Source: Amycolatopsis cihanbeyliensis
Lineage (GTDB): Bacteria; Actinomycetota; Actinomycetes; Mycobacteriales; Pseudonocardiaceae
Length of the DNA stretch: 64,000 bases
Direction of reading: 5' to 3'
Assembly (NCBI RefSeq): GCF_006715045.1
Contig: NZ_VFML01000001.1
Span: 5,676,001-5,740,000, forward strand
In this document: positions 19,979 to 38,895 of the stretch, one piece after another
Layout of the letters: each line of letters starts with the position of its first letter
How positions within the stretch are numbered: the first letter of the stretch is position 1
Notes under the pieces: model-generated
The model's input: only the letters and a program-made list of their open reading frames with translations
Database searches by the model: none
Told to the model about the DNA's origin: nothing
Translations under genes and position numbers: made by a program

Positions 19979-20440
19979 ATGAGCGACGACCAGGACAACA
20001 CTCCGCGATATCTCGGCCTCGCGCCGTATTTGTACTACGCCGACGCCACCCAGGCGCTGGAATGGCTGGTACGGGTGTTCGGGTTCACCGAGAAGCTGCG
20101 CTATGAGGACGCCGCGGGTGCCGTGTTCCAGGCCACCGTGGCCGCGGGTGACGCGGAGGTCCAACTGACCTCGGTCGGTCCCGAGTACTGGGAGGCCAAG
20201 GGCGTGGACGGCCCGGTGGGCCAGCTCAACGTGGTGTACGTGGACGATGTGGACGCGCAGCACGCCAGGGTCAGCGCCGCGCTCGGGGACCATGTCGAGG
20301 TGTCCCGGCCGCAGGACCAGCCCTACGGCGCGCGACTGTTCACCGTGCAGGACATCGGCGGCAACAGCTGGACCTTCTGGCAGCGTGTCTCGGACACCGT
20401 CGAGCTGCCCGCGGGCTGGCGGGAAGTGCGCGCGGAATGA
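19979..20440 (+). CDS. VOC/glyoxalase superfamily protein
   Basis: Single bleomycin-resistance/glyoxalase-type module of about 153 residues with the beta-alpha-beta-beta-beta pattern: YLGLAPYLYYADATQALEWL, then FTEKLRYED, and the closing half NVVYVDDVDAQHARV with RLFTVQDIGGNSWTFWQ. Metal ligands are plausible (Glu in the last strands) but function is not predictable. ATG 19979 is chosen; upstream in-frame starts at 19961 and 19940 are possible. Confidence 0.83.
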   Translation: MSDDQDNTPRYLGLAPYLYYADATQALEWLVRVFGFTEKLRYEDAAGAVFQATVAAGDAEVQLTSVGPEYWEAKGVDGPVGQLNVVYVDDVDAQHARVSAALGDHVEVSRPQDQPYGARLFTVQDIGGNSWTFWQRVSDTVELPAGWREVRAE

Positions 20441-20537
20441 GTTCCGCCGCGTGCTACCTGCGTGCCTGCAGCGGGTGATCTCCGCCTGCCGCTACGCTGG
20501 GTGCCGACGTCGCTGGCACAACCGGGTGAGGAGTTAA

Positions 20538-21827
<1,290 letters not shown>

Positions 21828-21831
21828 GGCC

Positions 21832-22350
21832 GTGGCGGAACGGCGCAGGCCACGGCGCAGGAGTACGGGAGGACGGGCCCAGGGCTCGTCCTCCCGGCGC
21901 CCCGAGCGGGCGCGGCGCGAAGGGCGCAGGGCACGGCTGCGGCGCGGGCTCAGCGCGAAGCGTGCCTCCGGCGCGGCCAAGGTGCTCGGCCTCTCCAACA
22001 CCCGCAGGGCCGCGGTGGTGGCGATCGTGCTGTGTGCGCTGGCGTTCACCATCGCGGTGCCGCTACGGACCTACCTGATCCAGCGTTCCGAGGTCGCGGT
22101 GCAGGAGCAGCGCATGGCCGAGCTCGAGCAGGAGGTCGCCCGGCTCGAGGCGCGCAAGGCCGAGCTGTCCGACCCGGCCGAGGTCAAGGCCGAGGCCCGG
22201 CGCAGGCTACGGTTCGTGCTGCCCGGCGAGACCCCGTACATGGTGCAGCTACCGGAGGACGAGCGGCGCGCGCGGCAGCCGGGCGGTGAGCAGCAGCCCC
22301 CGCCGAAGGGCACCTGGTACGAGCGGCTCTGGGACAGCGTTTCTCGCTAG
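21832..22350 (+). CDS. ftsB: FtsB/DivIC-family septum formation initiator
   Basis: Bitopic divisome protein that links FtsQ, FtsL and the septal synthase. It has a long Arg-rich cytosolic head (about 1-62), one membrane helix (RAAVVAIVLCALAFTIAVPL, about 62-80), a coiled coil (about 88-120; MAELEQEVARLEARKAEL) and the short DivIC end RRRLRFVLPGETPY. The head is longer than in E. coli FtsB, as in mycobacteria. GTG 21832 is 4 bases after eno, so expression is coupled to it. Confidence 0.92.
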   Translation: MAERRRPRRRSTGGRAQGSSSRRPERARREGRRARLRRGLSAKRASGAAKVLGLSNTRRAAVVAIVLCALAFTIAVPLRTYLIQRSEVAVQEQRMAELEQEVARLEARKAELSDPAEVKAEARRRLRFVLPGETPYMVQLPEDERRARQPGGEQQPPPKGTWYERLWDSVSR

Positions 22351-22443
22351 TCTCCCACCAGCGTTCCCACCAGTGTTCCCGCCCGTGATCCCACCGGTAT
22401 CCCGCTCGTCGGCTTCCGCCATGGCGGTCCTAAGCTCACCCGG

Positions 22444-22950
22444 GTGAGCAGTACCGAGTTGCCCCGGCTGGAGCCGGTGTCCGAAGCCGACCGGGCGGTG
22501 ATCGCGGAGCAGCTCGGCCGGCCGCCGCGTGCCCTGCGCGCGGTGGCCGCGCGGTGCCCGAGCGGTCATCCATCGGTGGTCCAGACGAACCCCCGACTGG
22601 AGAACGGCACCCCGTTCCCGACCCTGTACTACCTGACCTGCCCCAGGCTGGCCTCGCTGGTGGGCGGGTTGGAGGCGTCCGGGCTCATGCGCGAGATGAC
22701 CGAGCGGCTCGGCGCCGATCCCGAGCTGGCGGCCGCGTACCGGCGGACCCACGAGTCCTACCTCGCCCAGCGGGACGCGATCGAACCGCTGGGACACCAG
22801 GTCACCGCCGGCGGCATGCCGAACAGGGTGAAGTGCCTGCACGTGCACCTGGCGCACACCCTCGCCTGCGGGCGGGACGTGAATCCCTTCGGCGACGAAA
22901 CCCTCGAACTGCTCGCCGCGGAGTGGCCTGCGGGAGACTGCGCGCGGTAA
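22444..22950 (+). CDS. DUF501 family protein
   Basis: The 168-residue cytosolic protein of unknown function is always found between ftsB and ppx in actinobacteria (Rv1025 position). Conserved Cys/His positions, VAARCPSGHPSV, YLTCPRL and KCLHVHLAHTLACG, suggest a metal site. GTG 22444 follows the -10 TAAGCT (22431-22436) by 7 bases, so a leaderless transcript is likely even though the gene sits in a conserved cluster. Confidence 0.92.
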   Translation: MSSTELPRLEPVSEADRAVIAEQLGRPPRALRAVAARCPSGHPSVVQTNPRLENGTPFPTLYYLTCPRLASLVGGLEASGLMREMTERLGADPELAAAYRRTHESYLAQRDAIEPLGHQVTAGGMPNRVKCLHVHLAHTLACGRDVNPFGDETLELLAAEWPAGDCAR

Positions 22951-23085
22951 CGCCTGGCAGGGCGATACTGATACCTGGTCGGGGACGGAACCGAGGTCGG
23001 CCCGAGTGACTCGTACTACAGAGTTTTCACACCGGCTGAACAACCATCGGGGTGTACCGCTGTCGTCGGTAGGGGAGTGTGGGGC

Positions 23086-24231
23086 GTGCGGGTCAATCGG
23101 GTACCGGAGGTCGCGGTCGGCGCGATCCGAAGATTCGCGGTGCGGCACAAGGTGGCCACCGCCATGCTCGGTGGGACCCTCGCCGTGCTGCCCGCCTTCG
23201 CCGCCGGCGGTGGCACCGCGAACTGGGCGAACACCGCCAGCACCGAACACAGCGCGAATCTCGCGCTGGTCGGCGGCTACGACCCGGGGATCAGCCGGGT
23301 CGGGGTGGACGGCAGCCTGCCCGAGCAGCCCGACCCGGAGACGCTGCCCGCCTACGAGTTGCCGAGCGGCCCGTTGGGTATTCCGGGTTCGGCGTTGAAG
23401 GCGTACCGGAACGCGGCGGATATGGTGGGGGTTGAGCAGCCGGGGTGCCGGATTGATTGGGCTTTGATCGCGAGTATCGGTCGGATCGAGTCGAATCATG
23501 CGCGTGGTGGGTATGTGGATGGGGACGGGAACACGTTGGAGCCGATTCTGGGTCCGGTGTTGAATGGTGTGGGTCCGGTGGCGGCGATCGCGGACACCGA
23601 TGGTGGGCGGTATGACGGGGATGCGGTGTGGGATCGTGCGGTGGGGCCGACGCAGTTCATTCCGTCGACGTGGCGGGGGTATGCGGCGGATGGTAATGGT
23701 GATGGGGTTTCGGATCCGAACAATATTTATGATGCGACGGTGGCGACGGGGCGGTATTTGTGTTCGGGTGGGTTGGATATGGCGGTGGATGGTGAGTTGC
23801 GGGCGGCTGTGTTTCGGTACAATAATTCGCGGACGTATGTGAATACGGTGGTTTTGTGGGCGGAGGCGTACCGGCAGGGGGTGACGCCCACCCCGGACAG
23901 CGAGGTCCCCGTCGGCGCGCCCGAGGTGAACAGCACGACCCCGGCACCCGGCGCGGTGCCCCCGCCGCCGACCCCGGCGCCGGACCTGCCCGGTTCCACC
24001 GGTCGACCGAACCCGCCCACCGGTACCGGCGACAACCAGCTTCCCGGGGAGAGTTCCTCGCGGACGGCGACCACGACCTCGCAGGACCCGCCCACCTGCG
24101 AGACGACGACCACGACCACCACGACCACCACGACCACGACCACGTCGACCACCACGAACCCGGACTGCGAGGGGGACGACGACCCCGAGGACGATCCCTC
24201 CGGCGAGGTGACCGGCACGTCGACGGACTGA
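23086..24231 (+). CDS. Secreted lytic transglycosylase with Pro/Thr-rich tail
   Basis: Paralogue of the transglycosylase at 18410. After a basic head and hydrophobic segment (about 25-45) comes the SLT_2-type domain (about 95-265) with catalytic Glu in IGRIESNHARGG and VGPTQFIPSTWRGY. A low-complexity tail (about 270-380) follows, with a run of about 17 threonines and a D/E-rich end. GTG 23086 has AGGGGAG at good spacing; GTG 23077 is also in frame. Codon usage changes sharply between about 23,370 and 23,885: codons there end in T or G, while the flanks end in C or G. This suggests a mosaic gene. Confidence 0.87.
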   Translation: MRVNRVPEVAVGAIRRFAVRHKVATAMLGGTLAVLPAFAAGGGTANWANTASTEHSANLALVGGYDPGISRVGVDGSLPEQPDPETLPAYELPSGPLGIPGSALKAYRNAADMVGVEQPGCRIDWALIASIGRIESNHARGGYVDGDGNTLEPILGPVLNGVGPVAAIADTDGGRYDGDAVWDRAVGPTQFIPSTWRGYAADGNGDGVSDPNNIYDATVATGRYLCSGGLDMAVDGELRAAVFRYNNSRTYVNTVVLWAEAYRQGVTPTPDSEVPVGAPEVNSTTPAPGAVPPPPTPAPDLPGSTGRPNPPTGTGDNQLPGESSSRTATTTSQDPPTCETTTTTTTTTTTTTTSTTTNPDCEGDDDPEDDPSGEVTGTSTD

Positions 24232-24258
24232 GTCCTGGCCGGTGGTTACCCTTTGGCC

Positions 24259-25212
24259 ATGCCTCGTGTTGCCGCCATCGACTGTGGAACCAACTCCATC
24301 CGCCTGCTGGTCGCCGAGCTGACCATCCGGCAGAACGGCACCGTCGACCTGCGTGACCTGCATCGGGAGATGCGGATCGTGCGGCTCGGCCAGGGTGTCG
24401 ACGCGACCGGGCGACTCGCGCCGGAGGCGCTGGAGCGCACCAGGGCGGCACTGGTCGGCTACGCCGCCGTCGCGCGGCGCGAGGGCGCCGAGCAGGTCCG
24501 CATGGTCGCGACCTCGGCCACCCGGGACGCGAGTAACCGGGACGAGTTCTTCGCCATGACCCGCGAGGTACTCGGCGTCGAGGCCGAGGTGATCACCGGC
24601 GACGAGGAGGCGCGGCTGTCCTTCACCGGCGCGGTCGGTGAACAGGATCCGGGCGACGGCCCGTTCCTCGTCGTCGACGTCGGCGGCGGCTCGACCGAAC
24701 TGGTGCTCGGCACCTGGGACGGGCGGCAGGCCGAGGTCAGCGCGGCCCGCTCGGTGGACATCGGCTGCGTGCGGATCACCGAACGTGCCTTGCGCACCGA
24801 CCCGCCGACCGATGCCGAGGTCGCCGCGGCCCGCGAGTTGGCGGCCGAGATCCTTGCCAAGGCCTACGACATGGTGGACGTGGCGCGGGCCGCCACCTGG
24901 ATCGGCGTGGCCGGCACCATCACCACCCTGTCCGCGGTGGCGCAGGAGCTGCCGGAGTACGACTCCGGGCGCACCCACCGGTCCAGGCTGTCCCGAGCGG
25001 ACATCGACGGGGTCGCCGGGAAGCTGCTCGGTGTCGACCATGAAACCCGGGCGGCCAACCCGGTGATCCACCCCGGCCGGGTGGACGTCATCGGCGGCGG
25101 CGCGGTGATCGTGCAGGTACTCGCCGAGCAGTTCGCCGAGCGCGGCGGGCCCGCCGACCTGGTGGTCAGCGAGCACGACATCCTGGACGGCATCGCGCTC
25201 AGCCTTGCGTGA
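24259..25212 (+). CDS. ppx: Ppx/GppA phosphatase (exopolyphosphatase family)
   Basis: Hydrolyses polyphosphate and/or pppGpp, linking phosphate stores to the stringent response. The 317-residue short form has the actin-like fold motifs AAIDCGTNSIRLLVAE (phosphate 1), ATSATRDASNRDEF and VVDVGGGSTELVLG (phosphate 2), and IDIGCVR-like SVDIGCVRITER. It corresponds to Rv1026 (ppx2). ATG 24259 follows the -10 TACCCT (24247-24252) by 6 bases, indicating a leaderless message. Confidence 0.95.
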   Translation: MPRVAAIDCGTNSIRLLVAELTIRQNGTVDLRDLHREMRIVRLGQGVDATGRLAPEALERTRAALVGYAAVARREGAEQVRMVATSATRDASNRDEFFAMTREVLGVEAEVITGDEEARLSFTGAVGEQDPGDGPFLVVDVGGGSTELVLGTWDGRQAEVSAARSVDIGCVRITERALRTDPPTDAEVAAARELAAEILAKAYDMVDVARAATWIGVAGTITTLSAVAQELPEYDSGRTHRSRLSRADIDGVAGKLLGVDHETRAANPVIHPGRVDVIGGGAVIVQVLAEQFAERGGPADLVVSEHDILDGIALSLA

Positions 25213-25324
25213 CCCGGCCTGACCTGGCTCGGCCGTTCGGACCCCATACTTTCGTCGGGTCTTGGGCGCCCACGCGTGTGTCTCCCGGTAGGGCGACCTC
25301 CACCACTGCCGAGGAGGAAAACGA

Positions 25325-27058
25325 GTGAGAAGATCAAAGCTTTTCCTGGCAGCGCTGGCCGTACCCCTGGTCGGCGGGATCACCGCGGTCGCCGCGCCCA
25401 CCGCGGCGGCGCAACCACAGTTGGCAGGCCCGGCCACCGAGTTCACGGTGCTCGCGGCCGAGGGGCAGAGCGTCGGAGCGGCCGAGCAGGCGGTCCGGGA
25501 GGCAGGCGGAACGGTGTTGCGCAGCAACACGGCGGTCGGCCTGATCACCGCGACCGCGCCGGCGAGCGGCTTCGCCGAGCGGATGGCCGCCGCGCCCGAG
25601 GTGTTCGGGGCCGCGCAGGCACGACCGATCGGTAAGGCGCCGACGAAGAAGGCCGCGCCGGATCCGGACAAGGTGGAGAAGGAGCACCACCGGGCCGCAC
25701 CCGGCCACGCGCGTTCCGGTCGGAAGCCGGCCGAGCCGGTGGGCACCGACCCGCTGGACGACAAGCTCTGGGGGCTGAAGTCCACCCGCTCCGACCTGGC
25801 GCGGAACAAGCAGCCGGGGGACCGGCGAGTCAAGGTGGGCGTGATCGACACCGGGGTGGACGGCTCGCACCCGGACATCGCGCCGAACTTCGACGCCGCG
25901 GCGTCGCGCAACTTCACCAGGGACATCCCGGCCGACGAGAACGGCACCGAGGTGGACGGGCCCTGCGAGTTCCGCGGCTGTGTCGACCCGGCCGATCACG
26001 ACGGCAACGGGCACGGCACCCACGTCGCGGGCACCATCGCGGCGGCGGCGGACGGCTTCGGCGTCTCCGGTGTGGCGCCGAAGGTGAGCCTGGTGAACAT
26101 CCGGGCCGGGCAGGACTCCGGGTACTTCTTCCTGCAGCCCGCGGTGGACGCGATCACCTATGCCGGCGACGCGGGCATCGACGTGGTGAACATGTCCTTC
26201 TACATCGACCCGTGGCTGTACAACTGCACCTCGAACCCGGCCGACACGCCGGAGCAGCAGCGGGCGCAGCGCACCACCATCGCCGCGGTCAACCGGGCGC
26301 TGGGCTACGCGCACCGCAAGGGCGTCACGCTGGTCGCCTCGCTCGGCAACTCGCATATCGACCTCGGCGACCCGCCACCGGACAGCAGCAGCCCGAACTT
26401 TCCGGCGGGCAACGAGCACGACCGGGATATCGACAACGACAGCTGCGTCACGCTGCCGATCGAGGGCTCGCATGTGCTCGGGGTCGGCTCCTTCGGCCCG
26501 TCCCAGGCCAAGGCCGACTACTCCAACTACGGCGAGGAGCAGATCTCGGTGTCCGCCCCCGGCGGGTACTACCGGGACTTCTTCGGCACCGACTGGTTCC
26601 GCACCAATGAGAACCTGATCCTCTCGGCGTACCCGCGCAACATCGCCGTCGCCGAGGGCGCGGTGGACGAGGACGGCAACGTCACCCCGGAGGGCGAGGA
26701 ACTCGGCGTGCAGAAGGCCACGGCTCCGGACGGCCGGGTGGGGTACTACCAGTATCTCCAGGGCACCTCGATGGCCTCACCGCACGCCAGCGGGGTGGCC
26801 GCGCTGATCGTGTCCGAGTACGGCAAGTGGCGACGCGGCGGGTTCGGCTTGGCGCCGAACGCCGTGCAGCGCGTACTCGAGGGCACGGCGGCGGAGATCC
26901 CGTGCCCCGTGCCCCGCACCGTCGACTACCTGGACGAGGGTCGGGACGAGTCGTACACCGCGACCTGCACCGGTAACCCGGAATTCAACGGCTTCTACGG
27001 CAACGGTGCCGTGGACGCCTACTCCGCCGTGACCCGCGGCGCCCGCTACCTCCGCTGA
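25325..27058 (+). CDS. Secreted S8 (subtilisin-family) serine protease
   Basis: The 577-residue subtilase has a signal peptide (about 1-29, cut after AAAQ), a short propeptide-like region with a Lys/Pro-rich linker (to about 140) and the catalytic triad: Asp in VIDTGVDGSH (about 174), His in GNGHGTHVAGT (about 231) and Ser in GTSMASPHASG (about 482). Paired Cys residues suggest disulfides. No C-terminal anchor is seen, so it should be released. GTG follows GAGGAGG. A strong hairpin lies just after the stop. Confidence 0.95.
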   Translation: MRRSKLFLAALAVPLVGGITAVAAPTAAAQPQLAGPATEFTVLAAEGQSVGAAEQAVREAGGTVLRSNTAVGLITATAPASGFAERMAAAPEVFGAAQARPIGKAPTKKAAPDPDKVEKEHHRAAPGHARSGRKPAEPVGTDPLDDKLWGLKSTRSDLARNKQPGDRRVKVGVIDTGVDGSHPDIAPNFDAAASRNFTRDIPADENGTEVDGPCEFRGCVDPADHDGNGHGTHVAGTIAAAADGFGVSGVAPKVSLVNIRAGQDSGYFFLQPAVDAITYAGDAGIDVVNMSFYIDPWLYNCTSNPADTPEQQRAQRTTIAAVNRALGYAHRKGVTLVASLGNSHIDLGDPPPDSSSPNFPAGNEHDRDIDNDSCVTLPIEGSHVLGVGSFGPSQAKADYSNYGEEQISVSAPGGYYRDFFGTDWFRTNENLILSAYPRNIAVAEGAVDEDGNVTPEGEELGVQKATAPDGRVGYYQYLQGTSMASPHASGVAALIVSEYGKWRRGGFGLAPNAVQRVLEGTAAEIPCPVPRTVDYLDEGRDESYTATCTGNPEFNGFYGNGAVDAYSAVTRGARYLR

Positions 27059-27071
27059 TAACCCCTGCTGT

Positions 27072-27114
27072 GAGTGACCCGTTCATCGCGAGATCCGCGG
27101 TGAACGGGTCACTC
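27072..27114. terminator. Strong hairpin between convergent genes
   Basis: Perfect 14-bp arms GAGTGACCCGTTCA (27072-27085) and TGAACGGGTCACTC (27101-27114) enclose 15 bases. It lies between the subtilase stop and the convergent islet genes, and separates conserved chromosome from the accessory islet. There is no T-tract, as is common in actinobacteria. Confidence 0.8.
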
Positions 27115-27128
27115 GCTGCGGTCGCCTG

Positions 27129-27404
27129 CTACCTGGGCCGGAGGAACCCGCCGTGGTCCAGCGCCGCCCGGATGAAGTCGCCGCCGATCTCCTGAGCCTC
27201 GTCGGCATGCCCGCGGACACGGGTGGGCCGGTCGTCCGGCTGGTCGATCACCCGGTCCCCTTCCGCGTGGGGGTGCTGCCAGTGCCCGCCGCAGTCGCGG
27301 GTGCAGGGCACCTCCACGGTGCGCAGCACGCCATCCGGACACGGCTGTTGCCAGGACATCGTGCCGGTGTCCTGGCAGAGGTCGCAGGTGGGTTGGCTAG
27401 TCAT
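27129..27404 (-). CDS. Small protein with DnaJ-like Cys motif
   Basis: The 91-residue protein of unknown function is the last gene of a minus-strand chain. It opens with CDLCQDTG (CxxCxxTG, like a DnaJ zinc repeat), then PCPDG and PCTRDCGGHW, which could give a four-Cys site. The C-terminal half is charged and ends GGDFIRAALDHGGFLRPR. Its ATG at 27404 overlaps the end of the tiny gene at 27397 by 8 bases, indicating translational coupling. The Cys pattern favours a metal-binding adaptor. Confidence 0.65.
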   Translation of the reverse strand: MTSQPTCDLCQDTGTMSWQQPCPDGVLRTVEVPCTRDCGGHWQHPHAEGDRVIDQPDDRPTRVRGHADEAQEIGGDFIRAALDHGGFLRPR

Positions 27405-27510
27405 ACACCTCGCCCGTCCCTCCGCACCGTGTGCAGTATGCCGAGCGACTCTCGTCGTTCGGGTCGAGCCCGTTGCCGAGGCAGATCGGACATGTACGTG
27501 GTCCCGCCAT
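27397..27510 (-). CDS. 37-residue DnaJ-type zinc-finger microprotein
   Basis: Tiny gene of 37 codons plus stop. It has two spaced motifs, CPICLGNG (residues 7-14) and CTRCGGTGE (26-34), the CxxCxGxG pair that forms the zinc site of DnaJ, here without any J domain. It ends 8 bases inside the next gene. No clear ribosome binding site precedes ATG 27510; an in-frame GTG at 27543 would add 11 residues. The paired motif is very unlikely by chance in this frame, which is why I call it real. Confidence 0.6.
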   Translation of the reverse strand: MAGPRTCPICLGNGLDPNDESRSAYCTRCGGTGEVYD

Positions 27511-27665
27511 AGCAGGGCCATCGGCAAGCCCGCCCCGGCACACAAGAGGCCGAACGGGTGCCGAACGGGTTCAGCGGCGCGCCGAGGCCCGGGAGCGTTC
27601 CCACGGGGGAGGCGGAGAGACGGAACGCCCTCGGGTCGGGGAGGGGAACCGGCAGCGTCCGGGGC

Positions 27666-27773
27666 TCAGCAGCCGCACCACCACCCGGCAGACAGGCCGA
27701 TCGACTGCACCAGCGATACCGCCAGGGCGAGCAGCACCAGCACCAGCAGCGGCCGGTCCTGCCGCGGGATCAT
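27666..27773 (-). CDS. 35-residue single-helix membrane microprotein
   Basis: MIPRQDRPLL followed by a hydrophobic stretch of about 16 residues (LVLVLLALAVSLVQSI) and the end GLSAGWWCGC with two terminal-region cysteines. The ATG at 27773 overlaps the stop of the preceding gene by 4 bases (ATGA). The coupling plus the clean membrane segment support a real gene. Function unknown. About 155 bases then separate it from the DnaJ-type microprotein, with no convincing gene between. Confidence 0.55.
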   Translation of the reverse strand: MIPRQDRPLLVLVLLALAVSLVQSIGLSAGWWCGC

Positions 27774-27997
27774 CGGCGCGCTCCGCTCGCCCGGCCACCG
27801 CGTGCCGCCTCACGAGCTGCATCGTCCTGCGCCTCGTGGAACTCCTCGCACCGGGTGGCGTGCTCGGCGGTCGGGTAGGTCGCCTTGCAATGCCAGCAGG
27901 TCCGGGCCTCCCGCGCCAGCCGGTCCCACCCGGCGACATCGGCCCTGTCCGCGCGCAGCGACGCGAACTCACGCGGCGGCCGATGCCTGCGCCTCAC
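27770..27997 (-). CDS. Small zinc-finger-like protein
   Basis: The 75-residue protein starts at GTG 27997, overlapping the stop of the gene upstream by 4 bases. Its central part, CWHCKATYPTAEHATRCEEF followed by H, matches C-x2-C-x8-H-x3-C-x3-H, a C2HC-type zinc knuckle. A helical stretch precedes it and a basic tail RGGRASGARR follows. Unknown function; nucleic-acid or protein binding is plausible. Confidence 0.65.
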   Translation of the reverse strand: MRRRHRPPREFASLRADRADVAGWDRLAREARTCWHCKATYPTAEHATRCEEFHEAQDDAAREAARGGRASGARR

Positions 27998-28269
27998 CGC
28001 GGCACCCCTTGCCACCCGCCCCAGCCGCCGAGCACCGGCGGCACATCGGTCAGCTCGGCCCGGCGCCGCTCCGCATAGGCCGCGCACGTCTGGCATTTCG
28101 GCGGGTCGACCGTCACATGGTCCTCGTGCACGATCCGCTGATCGACGCACGCGATGATCCCCCGTATCCCGCCGTTCTCCCGACCGCGGGAGTAGCCGGT
28201 GATGTAGTGCAGCTCGCCCCGCCACGCAAGCCATCCCGGAGGGGACGAGGGCCAGTCGCCGTCCGTCAT
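27994..28269 (-). CDS. Small Cys-containing hypothetical protein
   Basis: The 91-residue protein lies 36 bases downstream of the XRE regulator and is the first of the small coupled genes. It has WLAWRGELHYITGYSRG, a strand-rich part (IIACVDQRIVHEDHVTVD) and one CQTC motif followed by a charged helix (AAYAERRRAEL). I do not recognise a family. Coupled downstream to 27770 by a GTGA overlap. Confidence 0.65.
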   Translation of the reverse strand: MTDGDWPSSPPGWLAWRGELHYITGYSRGRENGGIRGIIACVDQRIVHEDHVTVDPPKCQTCAAYAERRRAELTDVPPVLGGWGGWQGVPR

Positions 28270-28305
28270 AGGACGAACGCTAAGCGCGATGTGACGCGCT
28301 TGTGT

Positions 28306-29544
28306 TTACAAACTGTCAACCCCTGTGAGCCGATGTTTCAGGCTCTCCAGCTCCCAGGAACGGCGCTTCACTCTGGTGTCCAGCTCCGCGAGCAGCTCCC
28401 GGGATACTGGGTCGTGGCGAATGCGCTGCGGAGCGATTCGGTCCGCAAGGTCCAGATGCCGCACCGCGTCGCCGTCGCGCGCGCCCTCGGCCTGCGCGTA
28501 GGCACGTGCCAGGTCGAAGTGCAGGGCCGCTTTCCGGTCAGCCGTGACCAGATTCGCGTCATAGCCTGGAGTTCGGGCGATCGTCTCGGCGCGCTCGGTG
28601 CCTTGCCCGAGCTCGACCGCGACCGACAACGACCACGCCTGTACGTTGGCCGGGCCGAAGGTGAACTGGAGCGCATTGCGCTCACCGGTACGTTCGGCCA
28701 GCTCGGCCGCCGCCTGGAGATGGGTAGCGGCCCGGTCGGCGTCATGGTCTTTGGCGGCCATCTGCGCCGACGACAGATGCAGCATGCCCGCAGCCTCGGC
28801 CGGACCTGTGTACTTGGCTTCTGGATCGACATACTCCACTTCCGCAAGCGCCGTACTGGCGACCCGTTGCGCCCTGTGTCGTGCGCCGAGCCGACTCAGG
28901 GCGCCTGTGCCTGTCATCGCTGCGAACGCCGACAGCGCCGGGTCATCTAGCCGCCGTGCGGCATCCTGCGCGCGCCTGGCAGCCGTCACCGCTAGGTCGT
29001 AGTTGCCAAGCGACCGCGCATTCCCCGCGGCGACGAAGCACGCCTCGACCAAAGCGGCGAGCGCGGCCCGCCGAGTGTCGGGCTCGCCGGTCACCGCGTG
29101 CACGTGAAGTTCGGTCAGTAGGTCGCCGAGGTCGTATCCAGCCAGGGAGTAGAGTGAATTCGCCGAGTGCTCGTTCGACACGCGCGCCAAGCGGGCGAGT
29201 TGCTCGACCGGTCGCGCGGGCACGTCCGGCACGTCCTCTAGCGTAGCGTCGTACAACGCTACCGAGATCGGCGGCAATGTGGCCAGCGCTTCTGCGCTTA
29301 CTCGGTCACCGGGCAAATAGGGCTGTCCGGTGAGGTCGATCACCGCGCAACCGAGCGCATTGGCCAGATCTTCGAGCAGGCCGCGCCGCTCGAAACGGCG
29401 TTCGCCGCGCTCCAGTAAGGATAGGTACGCCTTCGAGATACCGGCCAACCCGGCCGCAGTGTCGAGACTCAAGCCCCGCCGACGACGGATCGCCCGGACG
29501 CGCTGGCCGATCTCGGTTGGTTCTCCATGTGAGCGTGCCGGCAC
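28306..29544 (-). CDS. XRE-family HTH regulator with TPR-like C-terminal domain
   Basis: About 412 residues. An N-terminal HTH (about 10-65; IGQRVRAIRRRRGLSLDTAA, then GISKAYLSLLERGERR) is joined to a long alpha-helical region (about 120-400) like the TPR domains of Streptomyces pleiotropic XRE regulators. I start at GTG 29544, because AGAGG lies 7 bases upstream inside a 13-bp stem; a longer frame to 29637 would translate through that hairpin. It heads the chain of small Cys-rich genes and probably controls it, perhaps responding to a peptide through the TPR part. Confidence 0.8.
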   Translation of the reverse strand: MPARSHGEPTEIGQRVRAIRRRRGLSLDTAAGLAGISKAYLSLLERGERRFERRGLLEDLANALGCAVIDLTGQPYLPGDRVSAEALATLPPISVALYDATLEDVPDVPARPVEQLARLARVSNEHSANSLYSLAGYDLGDLLTELHVHAVTGEPDTRRAALAALVEACFVAAGNARSLGNYDLAVTAARRAQDAARRLDDPALSAFAAMTGTGALSRLGARHRAQRVASTALAEVEYVDPEAKYTGPAEAAGMLHLSSAQMAAKDHDADRAATHLQAAAELAERTGERNALQFTFGPANVQAWSLSVAVELGQGTERAETIARTPGYDANLVTADRKAALHFDLARAYAQAEGARDGDAVRHLDLADRIAPQRIRHDPVSRELLAELDTRVKRRSWELESLKHRLTGVDSL

Positions 29545-29549
29545 GAGCA

Positions 29550-29618
29550 ACCTCTTCGCGGAATCGCCCTCCTCGCGTGCCCCGGCCCGTCGACCGGGGC
29601 GTTCCTCCGCGAAGAGGT
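29550..29618 (-). promoter_or_regulatory. Hairpin burying the XRE gene's ribosome binding site
   Basis: Arms 29550-29562 (ACCTCTTCGCGGA on the plus strand) and 29606-29618 (TCCGCGAAGAGGT) are perfect 13-base complements. A GC-rich inner hairpin (about 29580-29599) lies between. In the mRNA the proximal arm contains the AGAGG site just before GTG 29544, so closing the stem would block initiation. Confidence 0.6.
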
Positions 29619-29663
29619 GCACCACCAGGGTAGCCACTACCCGATCGGGTGAACACGGTCAGG

Positions 29664-30038
29664 CTAGCTGTTCTGGCAGTAGGAGTCGGCGAGCGCGTTG
29701 GCCACAGCTTGCGCATTCTCTGCGATCCACCGCTGTGCCGTGTACTCATAGTGTCCGTTGAGTGGCGTAAGGAGGTGAGCGGCGACCATCGGTTCGTCGT
29801 ACTTGATCTTGAGGCACACGTCTTCTGCGATCAATTCAGCCTGGCGGACCGCAGTTGACTTCAGCGGAGGCGTGACCCCTTGGACTTCGAGGAAGCGCAG
29901 AAAGAGATCAGCGGCGTCGCGTGATGTTGTTGGCTGGGTCGTGGTTGATACGGCGGGCGTTGCCGGAGATGGCGTGGTCTCGTCGGTTCCGCACCCCCCG
30001 AGAAGGATGGCAAGCGCCACGGCCGCGATGAGCCGCAT
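29664..30038 (-). CDS. DUF732-like lipoprotein
   Basis: The 124-residue exported protein has a signal peptide with lipobox ILLGGC (Cys about 16), a Thr/Pro/Ser-rich linker (about 18-40) and a small helical domain with two Cys residues (EDVCLKIKYDE and ADSYCQNS). This fits the DUF732 fold common in mycobacteria and relatives. ATG 30038 is preceded by GGAGGT. It is upstream of the XRE gene on the same strand and about 120 bases from its start, so it may or may not share its transcript. Confidence 0.75.
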   Translation of the reverse strand: MRLIAAVALAILLGGCGTDETTPSPATPAVSTTTQPTTSRDAADLFLRFLEVQGVTPPLKSTAVRQAELIAEDVCLKIKYDEPMVAAHLLTPLNGHYEYTAQRWIAENAQAVANALADSYCQNS

Positions 30039-30678
30039 GGATGGACCTCCGGTCCCGGGCAATTTGGTGGATTGGCTGTGTTGTTGAGCCTTGCCATAAA
30101 CTTCGTCGCGTGATCGGAACTGGCGAAGCTAGGATGCGTTGAATGAAACGCAGCAAGATCACCGTCTCAGCGGCGGTCTGAGGCTGGACTGCCACGGCGG
30201 GCCGGCCAGCGGAAGCGCCGTGGTGATGTGCTGAGGCATTGGTCCTCCTGGTTGGTCGTGAGTATTCGGGGGATCGGCTTTGTCGCGCTTGATCGTTACC
30301 GCTGATGGGTGGTTGTTGCGGAGTTGTCACCAGACGGCGCCAGGCGCGGTGGATCACGACTCGGCTCCGCTGACCTGTTCGAGGAGAGCTTGATGCGCCG
30401 CACTGCGGGTGGTGTCAAGACCGCTGTTTCAGCGGGTGGCAGTGTCGCTGTCTTCGCGCCAGCACGCCCACCACTCCCGGCCGCCGTACCGTTACCCGTT
30501 CCGCTCACGGTCGTCGTCGACCCACCCGATCCATTGGTTGTCGACATAGGACGACGTGCTTACGAAGACCAAGCTTGGGTGCTGGTTGTGGCATGGAACG
30601 AACATGGGTATCTCTCAGGTGTAGGCCCCTTTGGCCCCATGTTTGCCCCATGCTCGTGTTGAGCTAGATCATCGCGAG
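30039..30678. other. Intergenic region with one doubtful small frame
   Basis: About 640 bases at the edge of the accessory islet, with lower G+C than the flanks. Overlapping open frames exist on both strands (30309-30662 plus, 30296-30547 minus). The minus one encodes a Ser/Thr/Gly-rich 83-residue product without a ribosome binding site. Neither is convincing. The repeated word GGCCCC/GCCCCA near 30,625-30,655 has no clear role. Confidence 0.4.
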
Positions 30679-32166
30679 CTACCGGTTCGAGCTGGTGGCG
30701 ATGAACCTGCCGAGGTCGCGACCCTGCTGCTGGCGGCTGGGCTCGTGCACGTACATCATGTGGCCCGCCGGGTAGTAGGCCGTCTCCACGTTCTCCCGCA
30801 ACTCGGCGGGAATCCTCAGGTTCGCGAGCACGTGCTCGGCCGCGTAGTACGGCGTGGCGCCGTCGTAGTGGCCGAGGGCCACGTGCACCTTCAGGTGCGG
30901 GTTGGCCCGCATCGCCGAACTGAGGTCGTCCACGACGGACACCGGTCGCCCGGTGTAGTCGGCGTACGCCCACGCCTTGTTCACGTCCACCGACAGGATC
31001 TGGTACGGCAGGTCGTTGGCGTAGCCCAGCTCGGCCCGCACGTAGTGGTTGAACGCCGCCGAGTAGGCGCCGACGATCCGGGAGATCGACGCGTCGTCGC
31101 TCATCAGCTCCCTGCCGCCGTCCGGCTCCCAGGTGGTGAACCGGCCGTCCATCCGGCCGGTGACCAGCCCGCGCTCCCGCAGCAACTCGGTGAAGAAGCG
31201 CAGATGTTCGATGCGCAGGTTCACCCGATCCACATAGGACTCGCTGAGCCCGGTGAGTGCGGCGAGCCTGCGCACCGCCTCGGTGCGCTCCGCATCGGTC
31301 AGCCGCGCCCCGCGCTGCAGCGCCCACGGCAGGTCCCGGGAGGCGAACTCCTCGGCCTCGGCCAGCAGTTCCGCCAGCGGCCGGTTGCCGTGCACGCCGT
31401 GGTAATGCGCGATCGCGGCGTAGGTGGGCACGTACAGCGAGTACGGCAGGTCGTTGCCCTCGACGAACCGGATGGTGCCCATGTCCAGCACGGAGGAGAT
31501 CAGCAGCAGCCCGTTCAGGTAGAGGCCGTGCCGGTCCTGCAGGTGCGCCGCGAGGCCGGCCGCACGCAGGGTGCCGTAGGACTCACCGGCCACGAACTTC
31601 GGTGAGAGCCAGCGCTCGTTCCGGGACACCCACAGCCGGATGATCTCGCTGATCGACTCGATGTCCGGCGCGACGTCGTGGTACTCCTTCGGCTTCTCCC
31701 CGGTGACGGCACGGGAGTAGCCGGTGGAGACCGGGTCGATGAACACCAGGTCGCTGTGCGCCAGCAGGGTGTCCGGATTGTCGGCCAGCCGGTACGGCGG
31801 CGGCTCGGGGGCGTTCACGTCGCCGGCGACCGCGCGCCGGGGCCCGAGCACCCCCATGTGCAGCCAGATGCTGGACGAACCGGGACCGCCGTTGAAGGCG
31901 AAGGTGACCGGCCGGGAGCCGGGCTCGGCACCGTCGAGGGTGTAGGAGGTCAGGAACACCTCCGCCTTGGCGAGGTGCCCTTCGAACTTGTCCTTGGTCA
32001 GAACCTCTTTGCGCAGCACGATGCGGCCCGTTCGCGTGGTGTACGCCAGCTCCTGGCCGTCGATGGTGATGGTGTGCTGCTTGGTGACCAGGTCGTCGGT
32101 GGGCTCGTCCCGCTTGGCGTCCTGCTCGGCTTGTGGCTCTGCGGTCTCCGTGGAGGTCTGTGACAT
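30679..32166 (-). CDS. S10 family serine carboxypeptidase-like protein
   Basis: Alpha/beta-hydrolase-fold peptidase of 495 residues. Family motifs are FNGGPGSSSIWLHMGVLGPR (oxyanion region, about 90-110), nucleophile Ser in VAGESYGTLRAAG (about 195), Asp in GHYDGATPY (about 433) and His in PAGHMMY (about 469). There is no signal peptide, so unlike fungal homologues it appears cytosolic. The start MSQTSTETAEPQ gives an acidic head. Divergent from udgB, with 32 bases between starts, so the promoters overlap. Confidence 0.92.
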   Translation of the reverse strand: MSQTSTETAEPQAEQDAKRDEPTDDLVTKQHTITIDGQELAYTTRTGRIVLRKEVLTKDKFEGHLAKAEVFLTSYTLDGAEPGSRPVTFAFNGGPGSSSIWLHMGVLGPRRAVAGDVNAPEPPPYRLADNPDTLLAHSDLVFIDPVSTGYSRAVTGEKPKEYHDVAPDIESISEIIRLWVSRNERWLSPKFVAGESYGTLRAAGLAAHLQDRHGLYLNGLLLISSVLDMGTIRFVEGNDLPYSLYVPTYAAIAHYHGVHGNRPLAELLAEAEEFASRDLPWALQRGARLTDAERTEAVRRLAALTGLSESYVDRVNLRIEHLRFFTELLRERGLVTGRMDGRFTTWEPDGGRELMSDDASISRIVGAYSAAFNHYVRAELGYANDLPYQILSVDVNKAWAYADYTGRPVSVVDDLSSAMRANPHLKVHVALGHYDGATPYYAAEHVLANLRIPAELRENVETAYYPAGHMMYVHEPSRQQQGRDLGRFIATSSNR

Positions 32167-32198
32167 GTCTCCAACCTAGATCAAGCGACAATGTCGGG

Positions 32199-32900
32199 GT
32201 GAGTACCTTTCCCGCCACGCTGGCCGCGCTCGACGCCGCGGTCGGCGAGTGCCGGGCCTGCCCGCGGCTGGTGACCTGGCGCGAGCGGGTGGCCGAGACC
32301 AGGCGTGCCGCGTTCGCCGATGAGGAGTACTGGGGGCGTCCGGTTCCCGGCTTCGGCCCCGCGGACGCGGCGTTGGCCGTCGTCGGGCTGGCACCCGCCG
32401 CGCACGGTGGCAACCGGACCGGGCGGATGTTCACCGGGGACCGGTCCGGTGACGTGCTGTTCCAGGCGCTCTATGACGTGGGCCTCGCCTCCCGGCCGGA
32501 GTCCACGCATCGCGGTGACGGGCTCGAGCTGCGTGGCACGCGGGTGACCGCACCGGTGCACTGCGCGCCACCCGCCAACCGGCCGACCCCGGCCGAGCGG
32601 GACGCCTGCCGCCCGTGGCTGGTGCGGGAGCTGGAACTGCTCCGGCCGACCCTGCGCGCCGTGGTCGTGCTCGGGGGTTTCGGCTGGCAGGCCTTGCTGC
32701 CGGTGCTGGATCAGTGCGGCTGGACCGTGCCGCGGCCACGGCCCCGGTTCGGCCACGGGGCGCGGGTCGTGCTGGACGGGTTACCGGTGTTCGGCTGCTA
32801 CCACGTCTCCCAACGCAACACCCAGACCGGGACGCTGACCCCGGCCATGCTGCGTACCGTGCTGCACGAGGCGGGGTCCGCCGCGGGCCTCGCCCGGTAG
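32199..32900 (+). CDS. udgB: Type 5 uracil-DNA glycosylase
   Basis: Removes uracil and other deaminated bases in base excision repair, important in G+C-rich genomes. The 233-residue protein has N-terminal CRACPRL for the Fe-S cluster, active-site region GLAPAAHGGNRTGRMFTGD (no acidic catalytic residue, typical of family 5), the ITAPVHCAPPANRPTP segment with further Cys and the motif CYHVSQRNTQTG, close to M. tuberculosis UdgB. GTG 32199 lies 6 bases after the -10 GACAAT (32187-32192), so the transcript is probably leaderless. Confidence 0.93.
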   Translation: MSTFPATLAALDAAVGECRACPRLVTWRERVAETRRAAFADEEYWGRPVPGFGPADAALAVVGLAPAAHGGNRTGRMFTGDRSGDVLFQALYDVGLASRPESTHRGDGLELRGTRVTAPVHCAPPANRPTPAERDACRPWLVRELELLRPTLRAVVVLGGFGWQALLPVLDQCGWTVPRPRPRFGHGARVVLDGLPVFGCYHVSQRNTQTGTLTPAMLRTVLHEAGSAAGLAR

Positions 32901-33015
32901 CCGTGGGCGCACCCGGGGTGAGCGGCACTGAATCGTTTCGGTCGTCGCGGCGACGCTGGTCACAGCGGATCGGGGTCCCCGAGCGACCTGCCCGGATGGG
33001 TGGGAGTATGACGGT

Positions 33016-34344
33016 ATGGCCGCAGTGAAGTCGGAACCGACTCGGATCTTGATTCTCGGTGGGGGATACGTCGGGCTGTACACGGCGTTGGGCCTGCAGA
33101 AGAAGCTCCGGGCCAACGAGGCGTCCGTCACCGTCGTCGATCCCCAGCCGCATATGACGTATCAGCCGTTCCTGCCGGAGGCGGCGGCTGGTGCCATCGA
33201 GCCCCGGCATGTCGTCGTCCCGCTGCGGCGGGTACTCAAGCGCTGTCACGTGCTGACCGCGCGGGTCACCGGCATCGAACACGAGCGCAAGTCCGTCACC
33301 GTCGAGGCCGCCGACGGGCACACCGAGCACCTTTCCTACGACGTGCTGGTGGTGGCCCTCGGTGCGGTCGCCCGGATCCTGCCGATTCCCGGCCTGGCCG
33401 AGCAGGGCATCGCCTTCAAGACCATCGGCGAGGCGATCTACCTGCGCAACCACGTGATGACCAAGCTGGACGAGGCCGCGAGCACGCTCGACCCGGAGCT
33501 GCGCAAGCGTTTGCTCACGTTCACGGTGGTCGGTGGCGGGTTCGCCGGCATCGAGGCGCTCGCCGAGCTCGAGGACATGACCCGGTTCGCCACCCGGTAC
33601 TACGAGAACATCGAGCCGGAGGACATCCGGTGGGTGCTGGTGGAGGCGGCAGGCCGGATCCTGCCCGAGGTGCGCGAGACCCTCGGCGTGTGGACCGCGG
33701 AGCAGCTGGAGAAGCGCGGCATCGAGGTCTACCTTTCGACGGCGGCCAAATCCTTCGAGGACGGGTACGTCCAACTCTCCGACGGCACCGAGTTCGAGAG
33801 CGACACCATCATCTGGACCGCCGGGGTCAAGGCCAACCCGGTGCTGGCGGGCTCCGACCTACCGGTGGACAAGCGCGGCCGGATGCAGGCCACCGCCGGC
33901 CTGCAGATCGTCGGCCATCCGGACGCCTGGACGGCGGGCGACAACGCCGCCGTACCGGACCTCTCGCGCACCGAAGAGGACCCCACCGCGACCTGCCCGC
34001 CGAACGCGCAGCACGCCGTCCGCCAGGCACGGCACCTCGCGAAGAACATCATCCGGGTCGTTCGTGGCGGGCAGCCGAAGGACTACTTCCACAAGAACCT
34101 CGGCGCGGTCGCCAGCCTCGGCCTGCACAAGGGCGTCGCGGACGCGCTGCGCCTCAAGATCAAGGGCTTCCCGGCCTGGGTGTTTCACCGCGCCTACCAC
34201 GTCAAGGCGATGCCGACCTTCAACCGCAAGGTCCGGATCACCATGGACTGGCTGCTGGGCGGCCTGTTCCGCCGGGAGGTCATCTCGCTCGGGCAGATCA
34301 ACTACCCGAAGGAAGAGTTCGACAGGGCGTCCAAGTCCTCCTGA
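33016..34344 (+). CDS. ndh: Type II NADH dehydrogenase
   Basis: Non-proton-pumping NADH:quinone oxidoreductase at the inner face of the membrane. The 442-residue flavoprotein has FAD motif LGGGYVGLYTALG (about 11-23), NADH motif VVGGGFAGIEALAELEDM (about 170), AGDNAAVPDL for FAD and the quinone-site region CPPNAQHAVRQ. The C-terminal part (FRREVISLGQINYP) would be the amphipathic membrane anchor. It ends 25 bases before the tRNA used as the element attachment site. Confidence 0.93.
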   Translation: MAAVKSEPTRILILGGGYVGLYTALGLQKKLRANEASVTVVDPQPHMTYQPFLPEAAAGAIEPRHVVVPLRRVLKRCHVLTARVTGIEHERKSVTVEAADGHTEHLSYDVLVVALGAVARILPIPGLAEQGIAFKTIGEAIYLRNHVMTKLDEAASTLDPELRKRLLTFTVVGGGFAGIEALAELEDMTRFATRYYENIEPEDIRWVLVEAAGRILPEVRETLGVWTAEQLEKRGIEVYLSTAAKSFEDGYVQLSDGTEFESDTIIWTAGVKANPVLAGSDLPVDKRGRMQATAGLQIVGHPDAWTAGDNAAVPDLSRTEEDPTATCPPNAQHAVRQARHLAKNIIRVVRGGQPKDYFHKNLGAVASLGLHKGVADALRLKIKGFPAWVFHRAYHVKAMPTFNRKVRITMDWLLGGLFRREVISLGQINYPKEEFDRASKSS

Positions 34345-34369
34345 GCCTGCTTGGCATAAGCTGTACCGT

Positions 34370-34443
34370 GCCCCCGTAGCCCAACCGGCAGAGGCAGTCG
34401 ACTTAAAATCGACACAGTGCGGGTTCGAGTCCCGTCGGGGGTA
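34370..34443 (+). tRNA. Class I tRNA with anticodon UAA (attachment site of the AICE)
   Basis: Acceptor GCCCCCG (34370-34376) pairs with CGGGGGT (34436-34442), giving G1-U72. The D arm closes GCC with GGC. The anticodon arm GTCGA-CTTAAAA-TCGAC puts TAA at 34-36 (leucine codon UUA). The variable loop is only 5 bases (ACAGT), T arm GCGGG-TTCGAGT-CCCGT, discriminator A73. Canonical tRNA-Leu is class II with a long variable arm, so the identity is uncertain. The 3' half (from 34406) is supplied by the integrated element; the displaced original 3' end lies at 49078. Confidence 0.85.
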
Positions 34444-34449
34444 CGTACA
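34406..34449 (+). repeat. attL core (left copy of 44-bp direct repeat)
   Basis: Matches 49078-49121 over 44 bases, 36 identical from the anticodon loop to the acceptor stem, one mismatch at 34442 (T here, C at 49114), then 7 identical. This copy completes the functional tRNA gene. Confidence 0.92.
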
Positions 34450-34491
34450 CGCTGGTGAGCGGCTTGTGGGAGTGGGGCGGAGTGATCGTGC

Positions 34492-34507
34492 GCCCCACTT
34501 ACGCCCC
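34492..34507 (+). promoter_or_regulatory. Candidate integrase arm site (left)
   Basis: GCCCCACTTACGCCCC, identical to 48945-48960 in the same orientation near the other end. An inverted partial copy, AGTGGGGC, lies at 34471-34478. Position between the core and int fits an arm-type binding site for a tyrosine integrase or its accessory factor. Confidence 0.5.
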
Positions 34508-34523
34508 ACAAACCCGCTGACCC

Positions 34524-35678
34524 TCACAACACGTTTTCCAACGCGGTCGCCGCATCCGTCGAAACCGCGCCACGACCCATGTAGACGTCCTGCGTGAGCG
34601 ACGGCCGAGCGTGCCCGAGCTGATCAGCGATCACCCGAGCCGACAACCCCGCCTCATCCATGATCGTGGCCGCTGTCTTCCGGAACACGTGCGACGTGAC
34701 CCACGCGAACCCCTCACTGCCCCGAGCCTCCCGCAGCGCGCGCCGGGTGTTCGAGGGGTCCCGCAGACCTCCGTACGTATCCGGGAACACAGGACTGTCC
34801 GGCGCACGGTTCTCGGCTTGCGCCGTCTTCCAACGCAGCCGCAGCATGTCTACCGCCCAGGTGGGCAGCGCGAGCAGCCGTTCACCGGACTCCGATTTGG
34901 GATCGGTACGGCGCAGGCCCTCGCCGCGAACCCGCACTACCGTCCACGCGATGGCCACCGTTCCCGCGTCGAGGTCCACGTCTTCCCAGTACAGAGCCAG
35001 CGCTTCGCCGATCCGTACGCCGGTTGCCATCAGGAACCGAGTCAGGTCCGGCAAGTCCTTGCCTACCGCCCTCGGATCAAGCTCCAGTTGAGCCAGCCAG
35101 GACCGGCGTTCGTCCGGACTCAAAGCACGCGCCTTCTTACGTGACCCGCCCTCGATCGGCTCGATCTCCCGTATCGGGTTGGTCGTGAGCGCACCATGCC
35201 GGACGGCGTAGCGCAGCACACCACCCACCACTGCCCGCGCAGTTCGAGCGTGCGCGGCACTCGCCTTCTGCCGGACGACCGGAAAGAACCGGTCGAGCCG
35301 CGGAACGGTTACCTCACTCACTCGCAGTTCCCCGAAGGCCGATAGGACGTGGTTATTGAGCATGCTCCGGTAGTTGTCCAAGGTCCCGGTAGCACGCTCA
35401 CCGTCAGCGACTCGTCGTTCCTGCCAGGCGAGCCAGCGTTCGGCGACTTCGCGGAAACGGCTTCTGCCGGTGATGTCACCGCCGGTCGGCGTTTGCAGCT
35501 CACTCGCAATGGCGCTCTTGAGTTCCCGCTCAGCCTTCGTTTTGCTGGCTCCCGAGCGGCTCAGGTCTCGGACTACGCCGTCGTAGCCCCGATAGCGAGC
35601 TTTCGCACGGTAGCCCTTTGCGAGCTTGACGAACCGGATCGTGCCGTGCGTCCCCACGGCCAATGGCGGCCGTCCCAT
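34524..35678 (-). CDS. int: AICE tyrosine recombinase (integrase)
   Basis: Catalyses site-specific integration and excision at the tRNA. The 384-residue phage-type integrase has an N-terminal arm-binding region (about 1-60), a SAM-like core-binding domain (about 60-165) and a catalytic domain with Arg in MATGVRIGEALAL, HVFRKT (HxxR), LGHARPSLTQ and nucleophile Tyr in DVYMGRG. ATG 35678 overlaps the xis stop (ATGA); a longer start at 35705 would overlap xis more. It lies 75 bases inside the left attachment site. Confidence 0.93.
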   Translation of the reverse strand: MGRPPLAVGTHGTIRFVKLAKGYRAKARYRGYDGVVRDLSRSGASKTKAERELKSAIASELQTPTGGDITGRSRFREVAERWLAWQERRVADGERATGTLDNYRSMLNNHVLSAFGELRVSEVTVPRLDRFFPVVRQKASAAHARTARAVVGGVLRYAVRHGALTTNPIREIEPIEGGSRKKARALSPDERRSWLAQLELDPRAVGKDLPDLTRFLMATGVRIGEALALYWEDVDLDAGTVAIAWTVVRVRGEGLRRTDPKSESGERLLALPTWAVDMLRLRWKTAQAENRAPDSPVFPDTYGGLRDPSNTRRALREARGSEGFAWVTSHVFRKTAATIMDEAGLSARVIADQLGHARPSLTQDVYMGRGAVSTDAATALENVL

Positions 35679-35854
35679 CAGACAGCCCCTTGTTGTTCGA
35701 CCCAAGCGTCAACGTCTTGGGGTCGGTAGCGGATGTGTTTGCCGATGCGGCGGCCGGTGGGGCCGTAGCCTTTGGTGCGCCATTGGTAGAGGGTGTTTTT
35801 GGGTACGCCGAGGTAGGTGGCTACGTCGTCAACGGTCCACAGTGTGTGGTTCAT
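35678..35854 (-). CDS. xis: AICE excisionase (MerR-like HTH)
   Basis: 58-residue winged-HTH protein of the helix_turn_helix_17/excisionase type: WTVDDVATYLGVPKNTLYQW, KGYGPTGRRIGKHIRYR and a short acidic end. It directs the integrase to excise the element. ATGA overlaps on both sides couple it to rep upstream and int downstream, the standard AICE rep-xis-int operon. Confidence 0.92.
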   Translation of the reverse strand: MNHTLWTVDDVATYLGVPKNTLYQWRTKGYGPTGRRIGKHIRYRPQDVDAWVEQQGAV

Positions 35855-37221: not shown

Positions 37222-37312
37222 CGGGCCGCCCCGGGGGTAGCCGCACCAGAGCCCGGGGCGTGTCCGGCTGGTGTGGCTATGCCCCGGGGGAGGAGGGTGC
37301 GGAGGAGGGTTT

Positions 37313-37978: not shown

Positions 37979-38000
37979 GAGGATCGTCCCCTTTGCGGAT

Positions 38001-38216: not shown

Positions 38217-38218
38217 GA

Positions 38219-38853: not shown

Positions 38854-38895
38854 CGTGCTGTCCCTCCCATCCTTGTTGTGATCTGTCCTCTGTGG

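Follow-up and report, generated by a model that had tools for sequence, protein, structure and literature searches.

A conserved leader with two competing helices upstream of XRE-TPR regulator genes in Pseudonocardiaceae

In a stretch of 64,000 nucleotides (nt) from Amycolatopsis cihanbeyliensis (contig NZ_VFML01000001.1, positions 5,676,001 to 5,740,000; this whole stretch is referred to as the window), a gene for a regulator with an XRE-type helix-turn-helix (HTH) and tetratricopeptide repeats (TPR) is followed by five very small genes, S1 to S5. We found that the regulator gene is preceded by a conserved leader, which recurs at the same position ahead of one class of gene and in which one strand covaries with two alternative partners. 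From the sequences and the predicted folds, we consider it likely that a bistable translational switch in the 5ʹ leader governs the XRE-TPR gene. Exclusive RNA folds seldom have the support of a strand that covaries with each of its two partners; here, they have it in tens of copies that precede one gene class. The initial annotation of this region had suspected a switch built of the small proteins; a switch-like element does exist, but it is a leader RNA candidate upstream of the annotated interval and not the proteins.

The leader and its two helices

The leader is roughly 80 bases long. In the window, its copy with the Shine-Dalgarno (SD) sequence included occupies 29551..29621 on the minus strand, as do all features of the window described below, and scores 80.7 bits with our covariance model R1, for which this copy was a training sequence. 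It is directly preceded by a -10-like box, TACCCT (29627..29632), and we infer a transcript start near 29620; a sigma-70 consensus scan of 26900-30200 returned no promoter. The leader begins with segment 1 (CCUCUUCGCGGAG; in the window CCTCTTCGCGGAG, 29605..29617), the strand common to both helices, which is followed by segment 2, a central GC-rich hairpin (29579..29600), by segment 3 (consensus CGCGAAGAGG; 29568..29577) and by segment 4 (CUCCGCGAA; 29555..29562). Right after segment 4 come an SD-like GAGG (29551..29554), complementary to CCTC of segment 1, and further on the start codon. Segment 1 is complementary to segment 3 and also to segment 4, with an overlap in UUCGCG. Two mutually exclusive folds are predicted, namely segment 1 with segment 3, which leaves the SD free, or segment 1 with segment 4 plus the SD, segment 4 competing for the same strand. 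Of 200 shuffles of the window leader stretch, one folded as well as the real sequence.

Both helices were examined in an alignment of 77 copies (A6). In helix 1:3, 95.5% of the cells were paired and 9 cells were double-changed, against 2.9 in shuffled alignments, with 2 of 500 shuffles reaching as high a value. In helix 1:4, 93.9% of the cells were paired and 15 were double-changed, against 2.2 after shuffling, and none of the 500 shuffles was as high. The column pair 16-83 occurred as four pair types with no unpaired copy, and at one locus (L180) a single change in segment 1 was compensated in both segment 3 and segment 4. Sliding the helices by one to three columns reduced the pairing to 40-66%. 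Complementarity of segment 1 to both partners over at least 8 bases was present in 60 of the 77 real copies and in 12 of 385 shuffled ones. On the transcribed strand, G-U pairs outnumbered A-C mismatches (69 vs 19 in helix 1:3, 32 vs 18 in helix 1:4), as would be expected for an RNA of that strand. The conservation in A6 sits in the competing arms, and the loop of hairpin 2 is variable. Helix 1:4 was already strong in the 37 copies from the genus, and on these alignments it is better proven than helix 1:3. Three related copies with shifted promoter spacing (L114, L133 and L135) carry a swapped pair in helix 1:4, and by eye their helix 1:3 has one more pair.

The leader was recognized through a plasmid match (H6) that was limited to the non-coding stretch ahead of the XRE gene and prompted a comparison of upstream regions. 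The window and nine further sites, all distinct, had a pattern in common; an eleventh, diverged copy was added by eye, and R1 was trained on these 11 copies. With an expectation value (E) of up to 0.01, R1 gave matches in 33 of the 80 genomes searched in the genus, and 40 of its 49 matches scored 33 bits or more. Eight of the 9 weaker matches were fetched, none of which lay before an XRE gene by the search used, and the ninth was the reverse strand of a strong match. The 40 strong matches were reduced to 39 by leaving out one of an equal chromosome/plasmid pair in genome G004, and to 37 by leaving out an identical row and the leader ahead of S4-S5 at locus L030. These 37 copies, among which the window and 10 others form the R1 training set, were used to train a second model, R2. 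At E up to 1e-5, R2 matched 71 of 390 Pseudonocardiaceae genomes in 20 of 46 genera, in a search whose fast filters lose weak matches. Out of 64 matches outside the genus 40 were fetched, and all 40 entered A6 beside the 37 genus copies. Among 394 genomes sampled across the class, the window's own genome was the sole match (E 1e-4).

An Rfam search of window positions 20000-40000 had a tRNA as its sole match, and the loci L043, L120, L030 and L110 gave no match over the leader at E up to 1; a weak CcsR1 match in L030 lay off the leader and below the cut-off. No papers on such a leader were found among the matches listed in the literature searched, for which the journal coverage was partial. 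To judge from these searches, the leader is apparently a new, undescribed RNA family of a known mechanistic kind, with a well supported structure and setting.

Copies were also found outside chromosomes and in an altered form. Plasmid records carry related XRE genes, and two of them carry the leader as well. In G004 (probably Amycolatopsis sp. YIM 10), leader and XRE copies of equal score are located on the chromosome (C1:2744395-2744479) and on a plasmid-sized contig (C2:533-617, pAmyYIM10), which suggests a recent transfer. The reading of the leader as part of a mobile element was set aside: neither S1 nor the leader had a phage match, in an analysis that did not look for the borders of an element. 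At L048, in the window's own genome (C2:1095000-1105000), the leader that precedes an XRE gene (near position 4611) has lost its middle, and by eye the remaining ends look like a deletion between the CGCG repeats of segments 1 and 4.

Downstream regulator genes and predicted refolding

The regulator gene of the window (28306..29544) starts with a GTG at 29544 and matches Pfam HTH_31. An AlphaFold2 model built with 50 sequences had a mean predicted local distance difference test score (pLDDT) of 93.9 and consisted of an HTH plus TPR; a single-sequence model (pLDDT 55.4) was left unused. As modelled, the protein has the layout of RRNPP-type regulators, with an N-terminal HTH and a C-terminal TPR domain. 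The third-position GC content is 0.76 in this gene and 0.71 in an upstream 132-amino-acid (aa) lipoprotein-like frame (window 28306-30062), and 0.92-0.94 in four neighbouring long genes.

An XRE-type HTH was encoded next downstream in 75 of the 77 leader copies, 60 of them found by a search with the window HTH and all 75 after profile iteration; the 15 late-found frames read as ordinary XRE starts. The two copies without one were L201, where the gene is apparently truncated, and L214, a locus without such a frame. At least 300 aa were encoded by 68 of the 75 frames, and an in-frame start codon was located 5-25 nt past segment 4 in 74 of the 75. The opposite-strand control for these frames carries little weight, as the coding score is biased towards the sense strand. 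A TANNNT box was present 0-12 nt ahead of the leader in 71 of the 77 copies, against a mean of 5.9 and a maximum of 12 in shuffled sequences. A coding leader, that is an N-terminal extension of the regulator, was ruled out by the spread of the XRE frame relative to segment 1 over the three phases (28/24/23), and the distance between segments 1 and 4 varies freely modulo 3. At four loci (L206, L184, L185 and L205) the frame behind the leader is shorter than 100 aa, possibly a decayed regulator, and shorter XRE proteins of about 330 residues are also present behind the leader at L072, L121, L124, L126 and others.

In constrained folding, the energy of the 1:4 state was at or below that of the 1:3 state in 59 of the 77 copies, with a mean difference of 3.6 kcal/mol (standard deviation 4.9). 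For a transcript ending after segment 3, the predicted fold was helix 1:3 in 71 of the 77, and the succession of a nascent 1:3 and a full-length 1:4 fold was predicted in 52 of the 77. An SD motif was present in 59 copies, for which the mean predicted probability of the SD being unpaired was 0.61 with helix 1:3 formed and 0.11 with helix 1:4 formed; from the former state to the latter, SD accessibility was predicted to fall in 49 of these copies and to rise in one.

The switch could operate as follows. Transcription would start at or beside segment 1, which would pair first with segment 3 around the GC-rich hairpin, leaving the SD free and the mRNA translatable. Synthesis of segment 4 and the SD would then allow segment 4 to grip the unpaired GGAG end of segment 1 and to displace segment 3, and the resulting 1:4 helix, predicted to be the more stable one as a rule, would hide the SD. 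In this manner the leader may determine the timing or the duration of regulator synthesis. The simplest mechanism would be a mere folding timer that initiating ribosomes keep open; alternatively, a protein or a small ligand could favour one fold. The small Cys-rich proteins encoded downstream may be lineage-specific partners of the regulator. More tentatively, and with considerable doubt on our side, this Pseudonocardiaceae-specific RNA family could be a self-timing translational switch on a large class of RRNPP-shaped regulators: the mRNA could be translated only from its synthesis until a toehold-driven refolding, and the fold would be biased by ribosome supply or by binding of the co-encoded small zinc-finger proteins to the leader. 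The leader would serve as a compact natural model of kinetic RNA switching in high-GC actinomycetes, as a model with which to search for further examples and as a handle on many uncharacterised HTH-TPR regulators of antibiotic-producing genera.

A number of observations weigh against the proposed bistable switch. At the level of the helices, L188 has a segment 1 change of the type seen in L180 that is compensated in neither partner. Over the 77 copies, helix 1:3 slid by -2 had 10 double-changed cells, against 9 in the true helix, and helix 1:4 slid by +3 had a covariation score of 0.129, against 0.148. The variation in helix 1:3 is mostly G-U, its double changes were not above the shuffles in the set of 37, and the shuffle controls leave the relatedness of the copies in. 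In the predicted folds, helix 1:3 was the more stable one in 18 of the 77 copies, 16 of the 77 stayed in 1:3 at full length, and 18 of the 77 were without the SD motif used. As to the setting, six copies had no -10-like box at the usual distance (in L114, L133 and L135 it was 16-17 nt away, and three had none), and 7 of the 75 downstream XRE frames were shorter than 300 aa, so some loci may be decayed. Furthermore, XRE-TPR relatives outnumber leaders in the window's own genome (7 vs 3) and in Amycolatopsis aidingensis (7 vs 4); therefore, the leader is not essential to the regulator family.

Alternative explanations and known systems

The leader might act at transcription instead, one fold pausing or terminating RNA polymerase before the XRE gene and the other letting it pass. 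The very stable GC-rich hairpins in the first 80 nt or so after the inferred start would suit this role; however, no U-run follows them, and the single site called by a terminator scan of 26900-30200 lies off the leader, on the opposite strand. Moreover, the competing helix ends on the SD, a feature for which translational control needs no special explanation, and we regard a transcriptional mechanism as unlikely.

It is still less probable that the XRE protein and a small partner form a type II toxin-antitoxin system or a pair similar to XRE-DUF397. The layout, in which a small partner gene comes after an XRE gene and each genome has many paralogues, is the same as that of the Streptomyces XRE-DUF397 pairs (PMC10364602); a term search of the main text of this 2023 paper gave no occurrence of UTR (untranslated region), leader, zinc or tetratricopeptide. 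However, S1-S5 had no DUF397 or toxin match in Pfam and NCBIfam at E up to 1 (PADLOC was not searched), and the small genes vary from locus to locus. Another small putative zinc-binding protein following an XRE gene, a zf-HC3 (PF16827) protein, is encoded on a Prauserella marina plasmid (77 bits); S1-S5 differ from it in having no PF16827 match, and the leader of this plasmid belongs to a different XRE gene.

XRE proteins commonly autoregulate, and the inverted repeats adjoin the -10-like box ahead of the XRE gene, as they would if they were DNA operators for autorepression and the RNA fold were a by-product. Three-way complementarity, the G-U excess, the complementarity to the SD and a site downstream of the -10 box would not be expected of operators, and we find this explanation highly improbable.

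We give the least credence to peptide signalling of the RRNPP kind, in which S3 would be the precursor of a pheromone that the TPR domain reads: the HTH-TPR model does resemble the structures of PlcR, PrgX, ComR, Rap, AimR and NprR, among others, and S3 is under strong purifying selection in its WWCGC group, but unrelated TPR proteins match the model equally well or better, the S3 profile was found behind only 5 of the 77 leaders, S3 follows S2 and not the XRE gene, and its end signature was present in only 4 of 80 genomes. With S3 as the only candidate tested, no peptide gene conserved with the regulator was found.

The proposed translational switch has counterparts among known systems. Translational riboswitches use two exclusive helices on one common strand, one of which hides the SD; the leader described here differs in having no evident ligand core, with its variable hairpin 2 loop and no Rfam family matching it. 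In the 5ʹ UTR of phage MS2, folding is delayed and translation takes place only until a stable SD-hiding fold is reached. The leader would share this translation window, with predicted kinetics, and differs in sequence, host and gene. According to PMC6733600, metastable folds formed during transcription of the aapA3 type I toxin mRNA of Helicobacter pylori hide the SD and are later replaced. Transient folds with a change in SD access are common to both; in aapA3, however, the first folds hide the SD, whereas the first fold predicted here leaves it free, and the gene encodes a toxin and not a regulator.

The small genes and their cassettes

The initial annotation had described five tiny genes after the regulator, and their frames, lengths, overlaps and Cys motifs were all confirmed on the sequence. 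S1 (27994..28269) encodes a 91-aa protein with a CQTC motif. S2 (27770..27997, GTG start) encodes 75 aa with a CxxC-x12-CxxxH motif, and S3 (27666..27773) encodes 35 aa with a single hydrophobic stretch and GWWCGC at the end (9-sequence alignment). S4 (27397..27510) encodes 37 aa with the DnaJ-type Cys pairs CPICLGNG..CTRCGGTG and has homologues in L030, L034 and L035; S5 (27129..27404) encodes a 91-aa CDLCQDTG protein. S1/S2 and S2/S3 overlap by 4 bases each and S4/S5 by 8 bases, and 155 bases separate S3 from S4. Since C34, C37, C50 and H54 of the CxxC-x12-CxxxH set are invariant in 12 aligned sequences, S2 is probably a zinc finger. Nothing in Pfam matched S1-S5 above the cut-off; S4 matched the DnaJ zinc finger (PF00684) below it, and Pfam gave no J domain in either S4 or S5.

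S1 had a second match in the window's own genome (70%), four in A. aidingensis (67-74%) and 3 weak ones elsewhere, in total in 5 of 100 genomes; a pattern search of genome contigs for S1 gave 65 pattern matches and 0 relatives. S2 matched 8 times in its own genome, itself included, 7 times in A. aidingensis, 3 times in G054 and once in G037 (4 of 80 genomes of the genus). Relatives of S3 were sought by DNA pattern and a local profile; its end signature occurred four times in its own genome, twice in A. aidingensis and once each in two more (4 of 80 genomes). Strong relatives of S5 (64-83% identity) were present in 3 of 99 other genomes (A. aidingensis, G056 and G011) and weak ones in 4 more.

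The ratios of nonsynonymous to synonymous substitution (dN/dS) were calculated for the window copies against their relatives, in sets of few and mostly paralogous copies. They were 0.39-0.55 for S1, 0.29-0.64 for S2, 0.23-0.39 for S4 and 0.17-0.40 for S5; S3 gave 0.05-0.22 against four WWCGC relatives and 0.95-1.58 against three diverged S3-like copies. By these comparisons, S1-S5 are real, conserved genes under purifying selection against close copies, including the 35- and 37-codon genes beside such a regulator. The initial annotation would have been undermined by a lack of conservation or by ratios near 1; values of that order occurred only for the diverged S3 copies. The named protein relatives that were found are from Amycolatopsis, in searches of which none was aimed at Streptomyces alone.

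Judged by gene order, XRE-S1-S2-S3 is a partly shuffled paralogous module and S4-S5 is a separate cassette. S1 and S2 follow an XRE gene, sometimes together with S3, at L033 in the window's own genome and at L029, L030 and L031 in A. aidingensis; XRE, S2 and S3 occur at L048 and L072, XRE and S2 at L036 and L037, and at L073 and L074 S2-S3 pairs lie on the opposite strand to the XRE gene. S4-S5 is located upstream of an XRE gene in A. aidingensis, and at the S4-S5 loci of G011 and G056 no XRE-TPR relative was present in the 12 kb fetched. What stands of the single functional unit proposed initially is the recurring, paralogous module of XRE with S1, S2 and S3, in partly shuffled order in these two genomes; the five genes do not recur together, and S4-S5 is found elsewhere. 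The small genes behind leader and XRE gene differ between loci; among the 77 leader copies, profiles of S1, S2 and S3 had downstream matches in only 5, 9 and 5, respectively. In view of these low counts and of the S2-S3 pairs opposite XRE, the peptide- or redox-responsive switch that had been suggested is not directly supported.

Two A. aidingensis loci depart from these arrangements. At L032 (C1:1500000-1510000), S1-S2 lies beside a 96% identical S10 peptidase gene, with the leader absent and a weak XRE-like match on the opposite strand. At L030 (7786-7864, minus strand), a weaker leader copy (41.6 bits) lies ahead of S4-S5, and the start that follows it resembles the first XRE codons, as if the regulator had mostly been lost.

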